Assembly (NCBI GenBank): GCA_016929985.1
Contig: JAFGIH010000758.1
Span: forward strand, 1 to 6,870
DNA from: Thermoleophilia bacterium
GTDB lineage: Bacteria; Actinomycetota; Thermoleophilia; RBG-16-64-13
Direction: 5' to 3'
DNA: 6,870 nt
This document shows positions 1-6,870 of the stretch, one piece after another (the stretch's first letter is position 1; each line of letters begins with the position of its first letter). A program made the position numbers and the translations under genes. Below the pieces are notes generated by a model that saw only the letters and a program-made list of their open reading frames with translations, was not told where the DNA came from and did not search any database.

Positions 1-44
1 ACCTTTCTTGGGCGCATACCTCCTTCTGCCAGGGTGTTTCTGTG

Positions 45-245
45 CTAGGTACAACGCCGGCCCCCGCTCCTCAGTTGCCGGTGACAGGGTGTTAGACCGG
101 AAGGGGCTGCTCTTTTTGGGCCACGTCTCAGTACGTCGAAGGAGTAGTGTCTGCCACCGTACTTGCCGGGATAGACGCCCCGGCCCGCTTCCTCCGCTCC
201 CGAATCGTCGTCGGTGAACAACTGGAGGTCTTTGAGCGCCACCAT
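45..245 (-). CDS. Possible small protein, 66 residues, unrecognised
   Basis: I do not recognise this protein. The reading frame starts at ATG 243-245 and ends at TAG 45-47. A G-rich Shine-Dalgarno (GA followed by eight G) ends 5 nt before the ATG. It lies about 94 nt downstream of the start point expected from the leftward promoter at 346-395, so a transcript through it is plausible. The first ~40 codons look protein-like (MVALKDLQLFTDDD, then YPGKYGGRHYSFDVL). The last ~28 residues are Arg/Pro/Cys-rich and look like untranslated sequence read by chance, so a frameshift, a decayed gene remnant or a non-coding leader are alternatives. An in-frame ATG at 350 falls inside the -10 box and is unlikely. 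Further left, an AAGGAGGT sequence sits directly before ATG 15-17 (MRPRK), and AGAAAGG lies at 2-8; either could mark the start of the next leftward gene beyond the window. Confidence 0.3.
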   Translation of the reverse strand: MVALKDLQLFTDDDSGAEEAGRGVYPGKYGGRHYSFDVLRRGPKRAAPSGLTPCHRQLRSGGRRCT

Positions 246-345
246 TGCCACCCCCCCCTCTGAGGTAGAGCACGCCCCTGGGCTGGACACACGCACCACT
301 ACCATGACCAAGCGACCCACACGCTCGGCCCGGTCGCGCGTGACC

Positions 346-395
346 AACATAACGCGCGATCAAGCATTCAGTCAACAACTTATTTAACCTAAACT
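346..395 (-). promoter_or_regulatory. Leftward promoter with shared operator motif
   Basis: On the minus strand, -35 TTGACT (370-375) and -10 TATGTT (346-351) are 18 bp apart. Immediately upstream of the -35 is the AT-rich motif AGTTTAGGTTAAATAAGTTG (395 down to 376), which contains the dyad TTTA-N3-TAAA. The motif plus -35 matches the dctP promoter at 22 of 26 positions. It lies downstream of the cyclase gene and points left, so it should serve the small reading frame at 45-245 or a gene beyond the window. The predicted start point is near 339. Confidence 0.6.
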
Positions 396-504
396 TATCT
401 GGAGGTCGGCCCCTGGGCGAAGGGGTGCGCAGGTTGCGGCCTCGTCGAAGCGCCATCAGCGATAGGTCTGCGCCATATCCCAAGCAGGCCCAGTGACGCC
501 GGCA
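396..504. other. Non-coding stretch after the cyclase gene
   Basis: No credible gene is seen here. A short hairpin (CCCCT 410-414 with AGGGG 421-425, 6-nt loop) lies about 80 nt past the cyclase stop codon, but no T-run follows on the minus strand. It is only a weak terminator candidate. Confidence 0.4.
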
Positions 505-1167
505 TCACTTCGCCAACGGCCGAAGGATAGCGCGCACGGGACTGGCATCCCCGTGCAGTATGCGAAGTGGAAGACAGAGCAGTTCGTACTCACCCGGCGG
601 TACGTCTGCAAGGGCGCAGCCCTCCATGATGTAGATCCCAGCGTCCAGAAGAGCCCGATGCGTCGCGTGGATGCTGGCGTCGTCTCTCCAGTTGCCTACC
701 GTGATGGCATCCATACCGAACAAACGGATTTCCTTCTCAGCGAGATACCTGGCCGCTTCCTCGCCGAGGTAGACGTAGTCCTCGATCCATTCCTTCGATT
801 CGTAGACCGCAGGCGAGTTCAACGTTTTGCAAAGGATACGCTCGCCCTTATTGATGCCGTGCTTCTGGAGTTCCTCTGGTGTGATGACGACCGGGTCCTC
901 GATCTCGATCACCCGTGCCGGTCCTATGGTCGCGTCGAGCGCCATGTCGGTGACTGTGGATCCGCCCTGGATGAAGTGAAGAGGGCAGTCGATATGCGTG
1001 CCTGTGTGGGTAAGGATCTCGAGCATCGTGATCGTCACCGGCGATCCGAGTTCATGCTGATGAAGACGGTAGATCTTCGGCTTCTGGGGATCCAAGATGA
1101 GATTGTGCATCCCTTGTTTCAAGACGAGCGAGATGTCGTACCAACCCTGAGGAACGATTCGGGCCAT
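505..1167 (-). CDS. Cyclase-family metal-dependent hydrolase (KynB-like fold)
   Basis: This is a 220-residue protein of the cyclase / arylformamidase family, whose members use divalent metal to hydrolyse amide, ester or lactone-type bonds. The family signature HxGTHxDxPxH is intact at 54-64 (HTGTHIDCPLH), giving His54, His58, Asp60 and His64. A second pair, His170 and Glu182 twelve residues apart, matches the C-terminal metal and catalytic positions of bacterial kynurenine formamidase. There is no signal peptide, so it should be cytoplasmic. The start at ATG 1165-1167 is chosen because GGGAGG lies 5 nt upstream; the 20 extra residues of a longer frame from 1227 are Arg-rich and lack such a site. 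Known family members include KynB, isatin hydrolase and enzymes of unknown substrate. No kynurenine-pathway gene lies nearby, so I do not name it kynB. It has its own promoter with the shared operator motif, about 107 nt of leader, and is divergent from the MarR gene. Confidence 0.9.
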   Translation of the reverse strand: MARIVPQGWYDISLVLKQGMHNLILDPQKPKIYRLHQHELGSPVTITMLEILTHTGTHIDCPLHFIQGGSTVTDMALDATIGPARVIEIEDPVVITPEELQKHGINKGERILCKTLNSPAVYESKEWIEDYVYLGEEAARYLAEKEIRLFGMDAITVGNWRDDASIHATHRALLDAGIYIMEGCALADVPPGEYELLCLPLRILHGDASPVRAILRPLAK

Positions 1168-1280
1168 GAGAGCCTCCCTGACGCGTGATCGATGTTCGGT
1201 CTGCCGCTTAGCGATCCGCCGCTGCACCCGGTGCGACCGGAGAGGCGATTACCGACCCCATCTGCCGTGCAGTCACGCAC

Positions 1281-1330
1281 ACCATAGCGTGAGTATCATA
1301 GAGCCGTCAAGAACTTGGTTAAGTCTAACT
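1281..1330 (-). promoter_or_regulatory. Cyclase-gene promoter with shared operator motif
   Basis: On the minus strand, -35 TTGACG (1305-1310) and -10 TATGGT (1281-1286) are separated by 18 bp. The motif AGTTAGACTTAACCAAGTTC (1330 down to 1311) abuts the -35 and contains the dyad GTTA-N4-TAAC (1318-1329). It shares 18 of 25 positions with the copy at 371-395. A further CTAAATAGTTAG stretch, resembling part of the dctP operator, continues upstream to about 1337 and may be a second, overlapping half-site. The predicted start point is near 1274. Confidence 0.65.
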
Positions 1331-1341
1331 ATTTAGTAATA

Positions 1342-1427
1342 TGCACCATCATTGTCCGGCCATTGAACCATACGCCGACATTGGCCGGCGGTCACTCGAT
1401 AGGCCCTGAATCCTTCACGATGGTGCA
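1342..1427. repeat. Nested inverted repeats in the divergent control region
   Basis: A perfect 9-bp inverted repeat, TGCACCATC (1342-1350) and GATGGTGCA (1419-1427), encloses a second one, CCGGCCA (1356-1362) and TGGCCGG (1382-1388). Both lie between the two opposite-facing operator motifs (1305-1330 and 1447-1466). No reading frame occupies the stretch 1331-1446. The 9-bp pair could be a divided site for another DNA-binding protein or help in looping; no function can be assigned from sequence alone. Confidence 0.5.
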
Positions 1428-1446
1428 ACAACGACCGGTTGCCTTT

Positions 1447-1495
1447 AGTTAGTTCTACTTAATTTGTGCCGTGAAGGCGTATGGTCTACTATATT
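1447..1495 (+). promoter_or_regulatory. Promoter and operator motif of the MarR-SDR operon
   Basis: A plus-strand copy of the operator motif, AGTTAGTTCTACTTAATTTG, occupies 1447-1466. It matches the cyclase copy at its first six bases and at most of the positions invariant among the other three sites. A good -10, TATATT, is at 1490-1495. The -35 position next to the motif (TGCCGT, 1467-1472, 17-bp spacer) is poor. The predicted start point, about 1502, lies downstream of ATG 1497, which argues for the GTG start at 1524. Confidence 0.5.
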
Positions 1496-1523
1496 GATGC
1501 CATCGATTGCGGAAACGAGAGGG

Positions 1524-2129
1524 GTGAGTGAGCTGAGTAACGCTACACCGGCTATCGCCGACAAGGCCGGTTCTTGCGACCGTGCGAACCAGTCCGCGAT
1601 GAGCGAGATCCCCAAATCGATCTGGCAACTCACCGAGGATGTCCTCGAACTCCTGCGTTCGCGGTCAAGCGCCGCCGTGCATAGAGAGAGAAGATCGGAC
1701 CTCCTATGGCTGGACGATCTGACTGAGACTCAGGGCAACACCGTCATAGCCATCAGACAGCTCTGCGAGCACTCTCCGGAAGGAATCACGCTCAAGAAGC
1801 TCGCGGAGACCATGGGCGTGACACCCGCCGCCGCCTCAGTCATGGTCGACCTTCTGGTCAAGAAGAAGATGCTGAGGCGCACGAAGTCCAAGAACGACCG
1901 GAGAGCCGTCCTCATCCGGCTGACGCCGGATACCGAGGGGCTCTTCGAAATCAGCGAACGCAGCCTCCTGCATACCTTCATGAACCTGGAAGAGTCTGTC
2001 GGTCCGGAGTTCTTGCTCGATTGGCAAAGGACCCTGCGTACCGCCGCGGCGGCGCTCCGTCAGACGGTAGGCGCAAAGTCGCCTGAGGAGGCCGGAGCAG
2101 AGGAGTCGACGTCCGAGGAGCCGACATGA
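1524..2129 (+). CDS. MarR-family transcriptional regulator
   Basis: This is a winged helix-turn-helix regulator of the MarR type, about 201 residues, acting as a dimer on DNA and typically released by small aromatic or other organic ligands. The helix-turn-helix runs over residues 88-119 (ITLKKLAETMGVTPAAASVM, ending KKKMLRR), followed by the wing signature NDRRAVLIRLT at 124-134. Long helices on both sides would form the dimer interface. The start is uncertain. GTG 1524 has a purine-rich upstream stretch (GGAAACGAGAGGG) and lies downstream of the predicted start point. ATG 1497 has no Shine-Dalgarno and probably precedes the start point; ATG 1599 also lacks one, yet would give a more usual MarR N-terminus. 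The C-terminus carries an acidic tail (about 20 residues, ending EESTSEEPT). The stop codon overlaps the start of the SDR gene (ATGA), implying translational coupling. It is the likely reader of the operator motif found four times in the window, including before its own gene. Confidence 0.88.
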   Translation: MSELSNATPAIADKAGSCDRANQSAMSEIPKSIWQLTEDVLELLRSRSSAAVHRERRSDLLWLDDLTETQGNTVIAIRQLCEHSPEGITLKKLAETMGVTPAAASVMVDLLVKKKMLRRTKSKNDRRAVLIRLTPDTEGLFEISERSLLHTFMNLEESVGPEFLLDWQRTLRTAAAALRQTVGAKSPEEAGAEESTSEEPT

Positions 2130-2920
2130 AGCTGGAAGGCAAGACCGCACTCGTCACCGGCGGGGGTACCGGCATCGGCGCCGCCATCACTGAACGGTTC
2201 GTCGCCGAGGGAGCCAAGGTCTGCATCACGGGACGCCGCAGAGAGAGGCTCGAGCAAGAGGCTGCCCAGTTCCCGCCGGGTTCCGTGTCGGCATGCCCCG
2301 GTGACGTCGCAGTACATGAAGATATCAAGAGAATGGTCGCGTCCACCGTCGATCTGGGTGGGAGCATCGACATACTGGTCAACAACGCCGCCTCCGATGT
2401 CTACGGGGTCATCACGGAACTCGAGCCCGAGGATTGGGACCAAGTCATGGCCGTCAATCTCAAGGCTCCTTTCTTGTTGATGAAGGAGACCATTCCCCAC
2501 ATGATCGAACGTGGTGGCGGATCGATCATCAACATCGCGTCCATCGGCGGGATCCGCTGCATGGCCGGTAGCCCGGCGTACGGGACGGCTAAGGCCGGCC
2601 TCATCCACCTCACGAAGGCCGTGGCCCTGGATTACGGCCCTTACGGGGTTAGATGCAATGCTGTGTGCCCCGGCGCAACCCGTACGGAGATGTTCGAGGA
2701 CACTCTTGGCAAGGTGGCCTCGGCCAAGGGCACGGATATCGAGAGCCTGCTCAAGCAGTTCTCGAAGCCTGTCCCCCTGAGAAGGGTATCGGTACCCGGC
2801 GAGATGGCCGGAGCATGCGTCTTCTTGGCCGGCGAAGATTCGTCCTTCATGACCGGCGCCGTGCTGGTAGTCGACGGCGGGGCCATCATTGTTGACGTAG
2901 CCGGCGTGTCAGACGACTGA
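2126..2920 (+). CDS. Short-chain dehydrogenase/reductase (classical SDR)
   Basis: This is a 264-residue NAD(P)-dependent oxidoreductase of the classical SDR family, interconverting an alcohol and a ketone or acting on a related group. All signatures are present: the nucleotide-binding glycine motif TGGGTGIG (11-18), Asp60 in CPGDV, the NNAA motif (86-89), structural Asn111, the catalytic Ser139, Tyr152 and Lys156 (YGTAK), and PG at 182-183. The arginines after the second strand (GRRRE, 36-40) suggest NADP(H) preference, an inference. The C-terminal GAVLVVDGG is typical. There is no signal peptide, so it is cytoplasmic. GAGGAG lies 5 nt upstream of ATG 2126, and the ATG overlaps the MarR stop codon, so the two are co-transcribed. 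Substrate cannot be deduced; family members with this layout include 3-oxoacyl-ACP reductases and sugar or cyclic-alcohol dehydrogenases. Co-expression with the regulator and proximity to cyclase, cycloisomerase and transporter genes favour a catabolic role. Confidence 0.93.
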   Translation: MKLEGKTALVTGGGTGIGAAITERFVAEGAKVCITGRRRERLEQEAAQFPPGSVSACPGDVAVHEDIKRMVASTVDLGGSIDILVNNAASDVYGVITELEPEDWDQVMAVNLKAPFLLMKETIPHMIERGGGSIINIASIGGIRCMAGSPAYGTAKAGLIHLTKAVALDYGPYGVRCNAVCPGATRTEMFEDTLGKVASAKGTDIESLLKQFSKPVPLRRVSVPGEMAGACVFLAGEDSSFMTGAVLVVDGGAIIVDVAGVSDD

Positions 2921-2940
2921 CCGATTGTAGAAGAGGGCCC

Positions 2941-2960
2941 CGAGGCTAATCCCGGCCTCG
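2941..2960. terminator. Weak hairpin between convergent genes
   Basis: CGAGGC (2941-2946) pairs with GCCTCG (2955-2960) around an 8-nt loop, within the 72-nt gap between the convergent ends of the SDR and dctM genes. It could serve both strands. There is no T-run on either side, so it is not a classical intrinsic terminator. Confidence 0.3.
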
Positions 2961-2992
2961 ACCTCCTCAGGCCAACATTCGCTTGAGAAACC

Positions 2993-4300
2993 CTACTTGC
3001 CGATCATCGCGCTCGGAAGCCACAAAGACAGCTCCGGGAAAGCCACGATGATGCCCAGAAACACCAGCTCGAAGGCTAGGAAGGGAGCTACTCCTCGGAT
3101 TATCTCGCTCGTTGGGATGTTGAATATGGTCTTCACCGCGAAAAGGTCGGTACCCATGGGCGGGGTGATCAAACCGATCTGAGTGTTGATGCAGAACATC
3201 ACTCCGAACCAGATCGGATCGAATCCCAGGCTCACGATCAACGGTACGAAGATCGGAACGGTAAGCAGTGTGATCGTGATGGGGTCTATGAACATGCCCA
3301 GCGCCAACACCAGCACATTGATGAGGACTATCACCACGTACCGGGACAGACCCGATTCGCCTACCAGGTTCTCCAGCCCAGACGCCACATTCGTACTCCC
3401 GATCACGTACGTGAAGAAATTGGCGGCGATGATGATGAACAGAATCATGCCGTTGATGAGCGCCGCTTCCCTGAGCGCCTCTTTCAGCTGCTTCCAGCGC
3501 ATCTTGTAGAAGGCGACCGCTATGATGAGCGCCACGACCACCCCGACACCCGCAGTCTCGGTGGCGGTCGCGATACCGGCGTAGATGCATCCGAGAATGC
3601 TGACCATGATCACGATAATGGGCCAGACCCCTTTGAGAGAGCTGCACCTATCGCGCCACGAAACCTTGTACCCCTTCGGAGCCAAGCCGGGTATCGCGTA
3701 CGACATCCCTATGGCGGGCAAAGCCAGAAACGCTACCAGCAGGATGCCGGGAACGAGCCCAGCTATGAAGAGCTTGCCTATCGACTCGCCGGCGATCACT
3801 CCGTAGATGATGAAAGTAGCACTGGGCGGTATCAGTGGACCCAGCGCGCCTCCAGCGAGTAGTGCTCCCAAGCCGAAGCCTCGCTTGTACCCCTGACGCT
3901 CAAACTCCGGTACGGCTACCTTACCCACGACGATGATGGTCGCTGCGCTCGTTCCCAGAGCCGCCGCGAGTACGCCCTCTCCAACGATGCCGGCCGCTAC
4001 CAGGCCGCCTCGGACCCTAGACAGCCAATTGGCGGCGGCCTTGAATAACCCCTCGCCCATCCCAGAGGACGCGATGATCGTTCCCAGAAGAACGAACAGC
4101 GGTAGTGCGGTCCATGACAGGTTGAAAGCCGTGGTGAAGGGTGACGCGCCCGCCTTGAACAGTCCTGCCGCGCCGTAGCCCAACAAGGCCGCCACGACCG
4201 ACGAGAAGCCCAACGAATAGACGATGGGCACGCCCAAGAACATCAAGACGACAAGGCCACCAACAGCGACCAAGCTGACATAGGTCGGATCGAGCCCCAT
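2993..4300 (-). CDS. dctM: TRAP transporter large permease subunit DctM
   Basis: This 435-residue integral membrane protein is the ion-coupled transport subunit of a TRAP system, moving the DctP-delivered solute inward with a sodium gradient. Length is normal for the family. It is very hydrophobic, with about a dozen membrane segments starting at residues 8-30. Family motifs are visible in the two repeated halves: ALPLFVLLGTIIASSGMGEG (65-84), GTSAAT (116-121), PEFERQGY (131-138), LGPLIPPS (153-160), and in the second half GLITPPMG (376-383). These regions form the hairpin loops carrying the sodium and substrate sites. AAGGA lies 6 nt before ATG 4300. It is the last gene of the dctPQM operon, 29 nt after dctQ, and separate from dctQ rather than fused as in SiaQM. 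Its stop codon is 72 nt from the end of the convergent SDR gene. The transported substrate is not predictable from this subunit. Confidence 0.96.
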   Translation of the reverse strand: MGLDPTYVSLVAVGGLVVLMFLGVPIVYSLGFSSVVAALLGYGAAGLFKAGASPFTTAFNLSWTALPLFVLLGTIIASSGMGEGLFKAAANWLSRVRGGLVAAGIVGEGVLAAALGTSAATIIVVGKVAVPEFERQGYKRGFGLGALLAGGALGPLIPPSATFIIYGVIAGESIGKLFIAGLVPGILLVAFLALPAIGMSYAIPGLAPKGYKVSWRDRCSSLKGVWPIIVIMVSILGCIYAGIATATETAGVGVVVALIIAVAFYKMRWKQLKEALREAALINGMILFIIIAANFFTYVIGSTNVASGLENLVGESGLSRYVVIVLINVLVLALGMFIDPITITLLTVPIFVPLIVSLGFDPIWFGVMFCINTQIGLITPPMGTDLFAVKTIFNIPTSEIIRGVAPFLAFELVFLGIIVAFPELSLWLPSAMIGK

Positions 4301-4329
4301 AGCGTGTCCTTATCGAGCCATTTTCGACA

Positions 4330-4866
4330 TTACAGTTGGATCCTGTTGTCCTCTCGGACCGTCCCTTTCACCACGTTGATGATGCCGTGCACCAATTGTG
4401 AGACGAGGGTCAAAAACAACCAGCCCATGCTGATCGGGACCAGGAGCTTCATGGGCCAGAGCGGTTCCTGCCACGCCGATTGGCTGGTCTCGCCCGATTG
4501 GAAGGCGCTCATGAATATCCCCCAGCTCTTCCAGATCACCACGGACAGGAAGACCATGGCCAAGAGCGCAGTGAAGACGTCGGTCATGATGCCCTGCCAT
4601 TTTGGCGACATGTGATTGATGAGAAAGTCGACCCGAAGATGGCGCCGGTCCTTCTGGATGGCAGGTATGGATATCAATATGCAGGTCACTAGGAAGATGA
4701 CGCTCAGCTCGTAGGAGTACGGCTCCGGATCGTCGAACACGTATCGTCTTCCCACCCCATACGTGGTCAAGATGCCCATGAGCATGATCAAGATACCGCT
4801 GATGAGCAGCCCCCAGTCACTGACCTTCGCGACGACGCTGTCAATCCTGAGTAAGAATCTCTTCAC
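4330..4866 (-). CDS. dctQ: TRAP transporter small permease subunit DctQ
   Basis: This is a 178-residue small membrane subunit that stably associates with DctM and is needed for transport. Four membrane segments are expected at about 18-38, 51-71, 93-112 and 138-160. Family hallmarks include RRYVF (40-44) after the first segment, a Glu in the second (YELSVIFL, 52-59), the HLRVDFL loop (76-82), and the GE...P.WP segment before the last helix (125-138). The start codon is GTG (4864-4866), with GGAGGAG 6 nt upstream; no better start lies nearby. The Shine-Dalgarno is partly inside the base of a 17-bp hairpin in the dctP-dctQ gap, so translation of dctQ is probably held below that of dctP. The gap to dctP is 63 nt and to dctM 29 nt, consistent with one transcript. 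Confidence 0.95.
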   Translation of the reverse strand: MKRFLLRIDSVVAKVSDWGLLISGILIMLMGILTTYGVGRRYVFDDPEPYSYELSVIFLVTCILISIPAIQKDRRHLRVDFLINHMSPKWQGIMTDVFTALLAMVFLSVVIWKSWGIFMSAFQSGETSQSAWQEPLWPMKLLVPISMGWLFLTLVSQLVHGIINVVKGTVREDNRIQL

Positions 4867-4877
4867 GGCTCACTCCT

Positions 4878-4918
4878 CCGCCGTGCGGCCTGCTGGATCA
4901 GAGCAGGCCGCACGGCGG
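4878..4918 (-). promoter_or_regulatory. Strong hairpin between dctP and dctQ
   Basis: A perfect 17-bp inverted repeat pairs 4878-4894 with 4902-4918 (AGCAGGCCGCACGGCGG on the minus strand at its downstream arm) around a 7-nt loop. It starts 11 nt after the dctP stop codon. No T-run follows, so it should not stop polymerase efficiently. Its last two bases are the first two G of the dctQ Shine-Dalgarno (GGAGGAG, 4873-4879). It likely protects the 3' end of a processed dctP message and limits dctQ translation, giving excess binding protein over membrane subunits. Confidence 0.8.
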
Positions 4919-4929
4919 TGCATGTCCGG

Positions 4930-6000
4930 TTAGTCCTGGTACGGAAACTGCGTGTCAAGGTCCGCTGTGATCTTCTTCACCTGGTCCGCGAGGGCCGGAT
5001 CCACGGCGCCCAGAAGCTCGTCAGAGTAGGGCTGGCATTTCTCTGCCCACTTGTCGCGTTCTGCGCTGGGCAGGGGGTAGACCTCAATACCCATCTCGGC
5101 GATCTTCGCGTAGTTCGTCTTGTAGAACTCGATCATGTGGTTATTGATGGCCGTCTGCGCGTCAGCGGCGCACTTGTCGAAGATGACCTTGATATCCTCA
5201 GGCATCTTGTTGTAGGCGTCCAGGTTCATGAAGAGGGCGATGCTCGCCGGCGTCAGGTAGGCTCTCGTGAGGTGCTTGGCGACTTCATTCATCTTGAACA
5301 TGATGATCATCGAACCCGACTGCGGAGAGGCTTCGATGACCCCTTTCTGCATGGCCTGGTAACCCTCGGCGAAGTCCATCGCTACGCCCGCGCCTCCCAG
5401 TAGATCGACCACCTTGGCCGTCGGCGGGGAGATGGTCTGGCAGAGCAAACCGTCCCAGTCATCCAACGTCTTTACCGGCTCGGTGCTGATGATGTCGAGC
5501 CCCTGGCAGGTAAAAGCAAGGACGCATTTCATGTTGTATTTCTCTTGACAGACCTGGTCGTAGACCTTCTGCATCTGTTGCGTGTAGGCGGCGTCGGCCT
5601 CGATGCTGTTGACCGAGAAGGGTAGTTCAGCCATGTTGAATAACGGGTCGACACTCCCGAACACGGCGATGGCCCACTCACCCATTTCCACGGCACCGGC
5701 TTTGACGCCCTCAAAGCTGTCGGGCACGGAGACAAGCGAGGCATTCGGATGGATCTCGATGGTGTACTTGCCCCCGGCTTGGGCGTTGAACTTGTCGGCG
5801 AACTCCTTCTGGAACTCCTCTGTGACCGGATCGCCCGCCGGGTGAGGCGCGGATAACCTCAGAACCACACTCTTCTCTGGTTGCTCGGCTGTAGCCACAG
5901 TGGTTTCGGTGCCTCCTCCGTCGTCACCGCAGGCAACCAAGAAACCCGCCGAGCATGCGACAAACAGCAACATCATCAAAACATAGATCGATCTCTTCAT
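4930..6000 (-). CDS. dctP: TRAP transporter substrate-binding lipoprotein DctP
   Basis: This is the extracytoplasmic solute receptor of the TRAP system, 356 residues from ATG 6000. The N-terminus is a lipoprotein signal: MKRS, a hydrophobic stretch, then LVAC with Cys24 as the probable lipidated residue (an earlier FVAC at Cys16 is less likely). A low-complexity Gly/Asp/Thr linker (25-35) tethers the domain, as expected in an organism without a periplasm. The body follows the DctP pattern: LRLSAPHPAGDPV (48-60), an FEGVKAGAVEMGE segment (96-108), the AMDFAEGYQAMQKGVIEA segment (207-224) and MPEDIKVIFD (266-275). At the place where most DctP proteins have an Arg that clamps a substrate carboxylate (G-L-K-I-R), this protein reads GLLCQ, with Gln188. 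The substrate may therefore not be a simple carboxylate. AGGAGGG lies upstream (6014-6020); GTG codons at 6003 or 6012 are possible in-frame starts. First gene of dctPQM, with its own promoter. Confidence 0.95.
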   Translation of the reverse strand: MKRSIYVLMMLLFVACSAGFLVACGDDGGGTETTVATAEQPEKSVVLRLSAPHPAGDPVTEEFQKEFADKFNAQAGGKYTIEIHPNASLVSVPDSFEGVKAGAVEMGEWAIAVFGSVDPLFNMAELPFSVNSIEADAAYTQQMQKVYDQVCQEKYNMKCVLAFTCQGLDIISTEPVKTLDDWDGLLCQTISPPTAKVVDLLGGAGVAMDFAEGYQAMQKGVIEASPQSGSMIIMFKMNEVAKHLTRAYLTPASIALFMNLDAYNKMPEDIKVIFDKCAADAQTAINNHMIEFYKTNYAKIAEMGIEVYPLPSAERDKWAEKCQPYSDELLGAVDPALADQVKKITADLDTQFPYQD

Positions 6001-6197
6001 CACTCCGTTCACTCCCTCCTCATACAGTGGTGACCCACACTACGGTCCGTGTCCGGCACACACCTCCTTTGCCACCGCAAACGATGACTCCAACAGTGCG
6101 AGCACCGCCTCCCAACATCGCCCAGTCACCAATCCGGCGCACTGTGCGACTCCTCAAGGGTCTGGTGAATCGCCCCGCGCCGTGCCTTGTGCACGTT
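6001..6197 (-). promoter_or_regulatory. Long untranslated leader of dctPQM
   Basis: The predicted start point near 6196 leaves about 195 nt before dctP. On the minus strand the leader contains a full-strength Shine-Dalgarno, AAAGGAGGTG (6061-6070), about 60 nt before the real start. Closely following GTG codons open tiny frames: GTG 6061 gives 13 codons, GTG 6059 gives 16 ending within the dctP Shine-Dalgarno region. Spacing is too short to be ideal. Two pairings compete: CGCAC-T-GTGCG (6138-6148) as a local hairpin, or CGCACTGT (6138-6145) with ACAGTGCG (6093-6100). I recognise no known riboswitch class. Confidence 0.35.
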
Positions 6198-6202
6198 TGC
6201 CC

Positions 6203-6252
6203 ACTATAAAACCCCTATGGTAGTGTAGTCAAGAAGTTATTTAGACTAAACT
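6203..6252 (-). promoter_or_regulatory. dctPQM promoter with shared operator motif
   Basis: This is the best promoter of the window: on the minus strand, -35 TTGACT (6227-6232) and -10 TATAGT (6203-6208), each five of six consensus bases, are 18 bp apart. The motif AGTTTAGTCTAAATAACTTC (6252 down to 6233) abuts the -35 and contains a perfect 11-bp dyad, TTTAG-A-CTAAA (6240-6250 as read on the plus strand), with outer arms AGTT and AACT. The predicted start point is near 6196. Confidence 0.75.
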
Positions 6253-6489
6253 ACCTACTTTGGGATTGGCTGCGGAGCCGCATGTGACACGGTATCGAGC
6301 AGGGTTCGATCCTTGTGCACGCATGATTTGACCAGGGTCCCCCCGGATCCCTGATCGGTGGCTCCGGCGGGGTCGGGGGGATCAGTCGCCGGGGTCTCGG
6401 ACGACTGACCCATCCGGGGCAAGACTCCGCCTCACCCCCCTGCGCGGCCACCCAGCGGTGGCCGGCATATGTGCCTCCGTGGCCTGAGG
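6253..6489. terminator. Non-coding gap with hairpins after the cycloisomerase gene
   Basis: No gene is supported here. Two GC-rich hairpins lie downstream of the minus-strand stop codon at 6490: CGGCCACC (6445-6452) with GGTGGCCG (6457-6464) around a 4-nt loop, and TCAGTCG (6382-6388) with CGACTGA (6402-6408). CTGATC (6351-6356) can also pair with GATCAG (6380-6385). None is followed by a T-run on the minus strand. They may slow or end transcription from the right-hand gene before the dctP promoter; this is the least certain regulatory call in the window. Confidence 0.35.
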
Positions 6490-6870
6490 CTACTTGCCGA
6501 TGACCACCGGCTGTTTGCCGGGGGTGGCGAGCTTCTTGACAGAAGCCTCGTCGAGCTCAACACCCAGCCCCACACCATCGGGCGGGTACAGGAACCCCTT
6601 TTCGTAGCGGGGAGGCTTCTTGGCCAGATCGTTCTCGATGGGTCCACTGACCGTGTCGTAGATGTTGTAGAGGTTCAGAGGGCCGATGGCTTCCTGCTCT
6701 ATCTTGCCCAACCAGGCAGTCGCGCCCAGGAAGGCCGCCTCGGCCGCACTGCCCAGACCGGAGTTGACCATACACCCGCACATCACCGGCAGGTTGGCGG
6801 CCTGCGCCACCGATACCCACCGCCTCGACTTGAGGATCCCGCCGGCCTTGGGGACCTTGAGGAAGAAGCC
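6490..6870 (-). CDS. Muconate cycloisomerase-like enolase-superfamily enzyme, 3' part
   Basis: Only the last 126 residues are inside the window; the gene begins beyond the right edge and stops at TAG 6490-6492. The fragment is the C-terminal half of the barrel and the closing segment of a mandelate racemase / muconate lactonizing enzyme family protein. FFLKVPKAGGI (fragment residues 2-12) matches the strand carrying the second catalytic Lys (Lys5 here) followed by the GG turn. AQAANLPVMCGCMVNSGLGS (22-41) is the conserved next strand and loop. EQEAIGPL (58-65) corresponds to the Glu-x-x-Gly-Pro segment of muconate cycloisomerases, and GVGLGVELDEASVKKL is the usual family end. Such enzymes abstract a proton next to a carboxylate and cycloisomerise, racemise or dehydrate acids, using Mg or Mn. 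The metal ligands and first Lys are outside the window, so the exact reaction is open. It lies upstream of dctP on the same strand, 258 nt from the dctP -35 box. Confidence 0.88.
   Translation of the reverse strand, partial: GFFLKVPKAGGILKSRRWVSVAQAANLPVMCGCMVNSGLGSAAEAAFLGATAWLGKIEQEAIGPLNLYNIYDTVSGPIENDLAKKPPRYEKGFLYPPDGVGLGVELDEASVKKLATPGKQPVVIGK

Follow-up and report, generated by a model that had tools for sequence, protein, structure and literature searches.

Two described MarR-family regulators, BadR and AcsR, come closest to the system analyzed here (all papers are cited from the parts of their text that were available). BadR of Rhodopseudomonas palustris and Aromatoleum is associated with a catabolic cluster for cyclic acids and has inverted-repeat operators (PMC9795900); in Aromatoleum, two such operators lie at divergent promoters and overlap the predicted -35 boxes (PMC9795900). 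The BadR site is given as CAATacATTG or CAAN4TTG in PMC9795900 and as ATTTGAT-N4-ATCAAAT in PMC13118786, and the two papers disagree on its action, the former describing a repressor and the latter an activator. AcsR, an actinobacterial MarR protein of Corynebacterium glutamicum, is associated with several AT-rich inverted repeats, and its targets include aromatic-degradation genes and a dicarboxylate-binding transport protein (PMC13118786). Here, we analyzed a window of 6,870 nucleotides (the whole of the stretch under study, positions 1 to 6,870 of contig JAFGIH010000758.1 and apparently its full length) from a Thermoleophilia bacterium (GCA_016929985.1), in which a MarR-family gene stands among genes for a TRAP transporter, a short-chain dehydrogenase (SDR) and a cyclase-family protein. 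Four putative promoters in this window carry copies of an 18-bp palindrome, TTAGTTA-N4-TAACTAA, that the MarR protein very likely reads, and the recurrence of this palindrome at MarR loci in two further genomes supports a local regulon.

The palindrome falls within the 16-20 bp expected of MarR operators. It has the 7-4-7 geometry of the BadR site in PMC13118786, whereas its half-site sequence differs, and the likeness to BadR is one of operator geometry only. Unlike the Aromatoleum BadR sites, the window sites lie just upstream of the -35 box. AcsR differs in its sites (AATTTA-N9-14-TAAATT, with variable spacing) and in reportedly activating one target while repressing another (PMC13118786). 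A literature search of limited depth found no description of a TTAGTTA-N4-TAACTAA operator or of its regulon.

The four window sites (A-D, Table 1) match the palindrome with 2-3 mismatches in 14 positions. An earlier note on this DNA had described a 26-bp unit, a 20-bp AT-rich motif fused to TTGAC(T/G), in three minus-strand promoters, with a fourth copy of the motif, facing the other way, before the MarR gene. The copies at 370-395 and 6227-6252 indeed agree at 22 of 26 positions, 16 of the 26 columns are invariant across the three minus-strand copies, and all three promoters have TTGAC(T/G), an 18-bp spacer and TATGTT, TATGGT or TATAGT as the -10 box. The repeated unit is real, but the 20-bp motif is better defined as an 18-bp palindrome with a 4-bp gap: its AAGTT end comprises the last two palindrome bases and most of the gap to the -35 box. 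The fourth copy fares likewise. As a 26-bp unit it agrees with A and C at only 14/26 and 15/26 positions, but in the palindrome register it has 2 mismatches in 14. From the palindrome end to TTGAC there are exactly 4 nucleotides (nt) at sites A, B and C; at site D, TGCCGT stands in that place.

The 22/26 pair alone is weak evidence and only just above chance, since the best 26-bp pair in 25 shuffled windows already reached 19-21 matches (21 in 4 of the 25). Such a pair would fit recent promoter duplication, or chance AT-rich stretches devoid of regulatory meaning. The set of sites, as opposed to the single pair, is beyond chance. With up to 3 mismatches allowed, the window has 4 matches to TTAGTTA-N4-TAACTAA, where shuffled windows average 0.01 and none of 200 reached 4; the unit plus TTGAC occurs at 3 places against 0.00, a circular test because the pattern was taken from the same sites. 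Half-sites matched best at a gap of 4 among gaps 0-10 (126/154 over 11 operators; the next best, gap 8, gave 118). Half-site symmetry was 47/70 compared to 23.8 ± 3.7 in shuffles, with 0 of 5000 reaching it; for the window's four sites alone it was 18/28 compared to 9.3 ± 2.4, with 2 of 5000 reaching it in a register chosen by the analyst. The consensus was drawn up after the sites in the window and at the two related loci described below had been seen, so neither the symmetry test nor the later counts are wholly independent of it. A de novo expectation-maximization search returned a palindromic but smeared model with 61.6 expected sites, which is a hint only. Finally, pairwise comparison of A-D gave a mean identity of 0.62 for both the operator and the 4-nt gap and 0.58 for the -35 box; the spacer (0.31) and the flanks (0.22-0.34) were at background level. 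This pattern suggests that selection has preserved or restored the sites, which do not look like mere recent copies of whole promoters. With the recurrence of the sites in two other genomes, it makes duplication or chance a very improbable explanation.

Genome contigs scanned with an alignment of the MarR protein yielded three loci: L001 from RBG_16_64_13, L002 from an uncultured actinobacterium and L003, a weak Verrucomicrobiales match; no relative was found in the viral contigs scanned. A matrix built from the window's four sites only was then run on these loci as a held-out test. In L001 (15.6 kb), two matches scored 23.3 (3541-3560) and 21.3 (3707-3726), and the third 10.8. The top two share one intergenic region that adjoins a SnoaL_4 gene, 1.3-1.5 kb from the MarR gene. 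In L002, the best scores (18.4, 17.3, 15.7 and 15.7) were less well separated.

Promoter geometry recurs at these loci. The L001 site at 3545-3562(-), TAAGTTTAGGTTAAGTAA, is one base off operator A and precedes the SnoaL_4 gene; it is followed by 4 nt, TTGAC, an 18-bp spacer and TATGGT. The L001 site at 3705-3722(+) has TTGAC after 4 nt and a spacer that is partly unreadable in the record. In L002, the site at 6395-6412(-), also before a SnoaL_4 gene, is followed by 4 nt, TTGACT, 17 bp and TATGGT. Thus 3 of the 6 palindromes at the L001 and L002 loci have TTGAC at +4, compared to a background frequency of 0.0008-0.0013 per position. Two weaker L002 sites were spotted by way of their promoters and do not count as independent evidence: 12589-12606(-), with 4 mismatches, precedes 4 nt, TTGACC, 18 bp and TATAGT, and 6451-6468(+), with 5 mismatches, precedes 4 nt, TTGACT, 18 bp and TATGTT. 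A 4-nt abutment to the -35 box, fixed at six sites in three loci, is more regular than usual for MarR operators. One L002 palindrome is placed otherwise: 12694-12711 spans a predicted -10 position that follows TTGACA (12671) after 17 bp. A site at the MarR gene's own promoter is present in the window (1445-1462) and in L002 (9826-9843). L001 has no site directly before MarR; its 3705-3722 site precedes the gene upstream of MarR. Gene content recurs in part, with TRAP, SDR, enolase and SnoaL genes in L002 and SnoaL, SDR and enolase genes in L001. The earlier note's proposal of a local regulon is supported, with the operator sites recurring at two further MarR loci.

We extended the counts to 18 genomes of one order, allowing up to 3 mismatches and using the reversed pattern as a control. 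Close MarR relatives (E <= 1e-15) occur in 2 of the 18, G001 and G002, and the same two were the only genomes with relatives at E <= 1e-20 in two overlapping draws from the class (2/399 and 2/370). All 4 palindrome places of G002 (2.7 Mb) fall within 6.3 kb (C27:21049-27365) around its MarR gene at 23253-23810, and 2 of the 5 places in G001 (2.6 Mb) lie 1.3-1.5 kb from MarR on C70. The sites are therefore grouped at MarR in both genomes that have a close MarR, just two positives, and none of the other 16 genomes has more than two palindrome places within 10 kb. The composite pattern, palindrome-N4-TTGAC with up to 3 mismatches, occurs at 5 places in the 18 genomes compared to 1 for the control. 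Four of these are at the two MarR loci, one of the four being a perfect palindrome without TTGAC, and the fifth lies inside a 433-aa frame in G042.

Several observations weigh against the palindrome as the operator of a MarR regulon. The palindrome alone is not enriched, with 67 places in the 18 genomes compared to 137 for the control (5 compared to 6 in G001; 4 compared to 4 in G002). As the count is no higher than the control, placement is what matters, and the argument rests on clustering and promoter geometry, not on palindrome number. The L002 matrix scores are not far above the best score in the unrelated L003 (14.8). No clear promoter is found near the perfect L002 palindrome at 10781-10798 (TTAGTTATGATTAACTAA, 14/14), and no palindrome with up to 4 mismatches lies directly before the L002 TRAP genes, which follow an enolase gene whose upstream region carries 12694-12711. 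Neither a TRAP nor a cyclase protein is among the 12 L001 proteins scanned. Six of the stretches around palindrome places were examined. Palindromes directly precede TetR genes in G059 and G036, another lies between the DtxR and FeoB genes of G036, and the cyclase genes of G012 (L024, C84:13282) and G087 (L025, C67:2798), genomes with no close MarR, have TTGGTTA-N4-TAACCAA or a near form shortly upstream.

The same or a near form precedes a cyclase gene in G001 (L009/L029, C2:19154), and in G001 and G012 the cyclase gene is followed by one for a pyrogallol-hydroxytransferase-like molybdoenzyme; the G087 cyclase was identified from its resemblance to the G001 protein rather than from a family scan. 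No MarR of the A1 type was found in G087 at E 0.001, and G012 has only a distant one (6.8e-6). TTGGTTA-N4-TAACCAA appears to be a related second operator that another protein reads, and the palindromes at TetR, DtxR-FeoB and cyclase genes make it probable that related palindromes in this group have several readers. We rejected the G001 cyclase as a distal member of the regulon: its site recurs in G012 and G087, where there is no close MarR, and the protein is only 29% identical to the window cyclase over 140 aa. The remaining two G001 places away from the MarR locus fall within short open frames (128-159 aa) that were called mechanically and do not prove the presence of genes. Two looser matches in G002 also lie off the locus: one falls within a 398-aa frame, and the other coincides with the beginning of a 508-aa frame, possibly upstream of the true start.

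These neighbors raise the question of whether another regulator, of TetR or DtxR/IdeR type or of some other kind, reads the palindrome in the window, with MarR a bystander or co-target. The related palindromes beside TetR and DtxR-FeoB genes and before the cyclase genes of G012 and G087 would fit, and L002 also has a TetR gene. By contrast, MarR is the sole regulator recognized among the 8 window proteins scanned, the G002 places all lie around MarR, and the TRAP, SDR and cyclase targets are not metal genes. We regard another reader as improbable. A DtxR/IdeR reading was rejected: the 19-bp consensus box matched the window operators at 12/19 at best and the L002 operators at 13/19, and a dctP coding stretch at 5843 also reached 13/19.

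We consider it highly likely that the MarR protein at 1524-2129 reads the operators, as the earlier note had proposed. It scored 40.3 bits against PF01047 (cut-off 24.6) and 37.1 against PF12802 (cut-off 27), and MarR proteins of the same subfamily are encoded in the window, L001 and L002, where the sites cluster. Its 123 homologues in public genomes and metagenomes include proteins of a Thermoleophilia bacterium and of Actinobacteria bacterium RBG_16_64_13. A wing with D-R residues is a hallmark of the MarR family. Across 61 aligned MarR sequences, R119, D125, R126 and R127 are invariant, and conservation is complete or at least 90% at many positions of the recognition region and wing, which fits a shared operator. 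For this subfamily, the sites would provide a concrete operator and regulon.

In L001 (G001), the matched MarR region at about 5051-5596 contains one in-frame TGA, and the listed frame, 5168-5596, starts inside the match. In L002, the first ATG, GTG or TTG of the MarR frame is at 10052, inside the match, and a CTG near 9940 follows a good ribosome-binding site. A distant MarR gene of G002 (L006) has its own palindrome, CTTTAGGTTACCTAAGTAAAG, at 1942-1961, about 50 bp upstream of its start.

We propose that the MarR protein is both the reader and the repressor of an autoregulated, ligand-controlled regulon, a reading to which we assign a probability of about 0.5. A homodimer would bind TTAGTTA-N4-TAACTAA at four promoters, serving the MarR and SDR genes, the cyclase gene, the TRAP genes dctPQM and, toward the left contig end, what is a SnoaL-type gene in the relatives and a fragment here. 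Counted back from the -10 box, the operator would span about -58 to -41, with its center near -50. MarR bound against the -35 box would bar RNA polymerase from near-consensus promoters and would limit its own synthesis; a substrate or intermediate of the pathway would release it, which would induce uptake and catabolism jointly. Granted that MarR is the reader, repression is the somewhat favored mode, because promoters A, B and C are near consensus (-35 TTGAC, -10 TATRKT), MarR proteins generally repress (PMC10458429), the MarR gene has its own operator and the L002 site at 12694-12711 covers a -10 position.

Two points speak against repression: sites upstream of the -35 box often go with activation (PMC13118786), and a fixed operator-to-promoter distance is what an activator requires. 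With the same reader and sites, MarR could instead activate from about -50, on a fixed face of the helix and at a fixed distance, contacting RNA polymerase at the edge of the -35 box. The invariant 4-nt gap at A, B, C, L001 3545, L001 3705 and L002 6395, none overlapping the -35 box, and the same gap at the two weaker L002 sites would suit such contact, and AcsR is reported to activate from an upstream site and to repress from an overlapping one (PMC13118786). Because the promoters look strong unaided, one L002 site sits on a predicted -10 position and the family habit is repression, we find activation rather unlikely. A position-fixed activator, its dimer near -50 and 4 bp from the -35 box at no fewer than six promoters in three loci, perhaps repressing where it overlaps a -10 box, is a doubtful reading; if true, a MarR protein of an uncultured actinobacterial lineage would recruit or remodel RNA polymerase. 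A mixed mode, with activation upstream of the -35 box and repression on the core promoter or a ligand that switches between them, would accommodate both site placements in L002 and has a reported precedent in AcsR (PMC13118786), but it needs more assumptions, and its overlapping cases depend on predicted promoters; it appears improbable. Whether by repression or otherwise, the regulator very probably exerts ordinary local control over a gene cluster for nutrient breakdown.

The gene assignments (Table 1) come from a protein family scan (Pfam) of 8 window proteins. The MarR and SDR genes probably form one operon. The TRAP importer, SDR, cyclase and nearby enolase-superfamily member suggest that a cyclic or aromatic acid is taken up and broken down, with importer, cyclase and dehydrogenase in one inducible pathway. 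The phloroglucinol cluster of Clostridium scatologenes likewise brings together an SDR reductase, a cyclase-family C-C hydrolase, a transporter and a regulator (PMC10470551). This likeness is at the family level only, and the available part of that source does not describe the transporter as TRAP (PMC10470551).

Table 1 Operators, putative promoters and genes of the window.
Feature	Position	Strand	Details
Operator A	380..397	-	TAAGTTTAGGTTAAATAA; 3/14 mismatches
Promoter A (putative)	346..375	-	TTGACT (370-375), 18-bp spacer, TATGTT (346-351)
Operator B	1315..1332	-	ATAGTTAGACTTAACCAA; 2/14 mismatches
Promoter B (putative)	1281..1310	-	TTGACG (1305-1310), 18-bp spacer, TATGGT (1281-1286)
Operator C	6237..6254	-	GTAGTTTAGTCTAAATAA; 3/14 mismatches
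Promoter C (putative)	6203..6232	-	TTGACT (6227-6232), 18-bp spacer, TATAGT (6203-6208)
Operator D	1445..1462	+	TTAGTTAGTTCTACTTAA; 2/14 mismatches; before MarR gene
Promoter D (putative)	1467..1495	+	TGCCGT (1467-1472; weak -35), 17-bp spacer, TATATT (1490-1495)
MarR-family regulator	1524..2129	+	PF01047; predicted start; putative operator reader
Short-chain dehydrogenase (SDR)	2126..2920	+	Family scan; overlaps MarR gene end
Cyclase-family protein	505..1167	-	PF04199, Pfam E 2.2e-23; downstream of promoter B; predicted start
TRAP transporter DctM	2993..4300	-	Family scan
TRAP transporter DctQ	4330..4866	-	Family scan
TRAP transporter DctP	4930..6012	-	Family scan; downstream of promoter C
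Enolase-superfamily gene, partial (MR_MLE_C)	6490..6870	-	Family scan; start beyond contig; upstream neighbor
SnoaL_4-like fragment	69..233	-	tblastn; downstream of promoter A

At the left end of the window (1-350, minus strand), promoter A leads into the SnoaL_4-like fragment alone, and L001 and L002 have full SnoaL_4 genes behind matching promoters. The fragment is 42% and 44% identical to the L001 and L002 genes over 55 aa (tblastn E 1e-8 and 4e-9), and the window protein at 45-350(-) had no family match in the scan. Two proteins encoded beside operators, L001 3813-4904 (363 aa) and L002 6575-7690 (371 aa), had no Pfam or NCBIfam hit at E 0.001; the L001 protein gives a sub-threshold cupin hint. 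Between dctP and dctQ, the window has a perfect 17-bp hairpin with a 7-nt loop (4878-4918). In L002, a different strong hairpin, seen by eye, follows directly after dctP at about 15225-15257, so that the position is kept and the sequence is not. Finally, VAGVSDD plus a stop at 6385-6408(+) copies the C-terminal residues of the SDR protein within a 29-bp direct repeat of 83% identity, possibly the relic of a rearranged SDR gene (a weak match, E 6.0).

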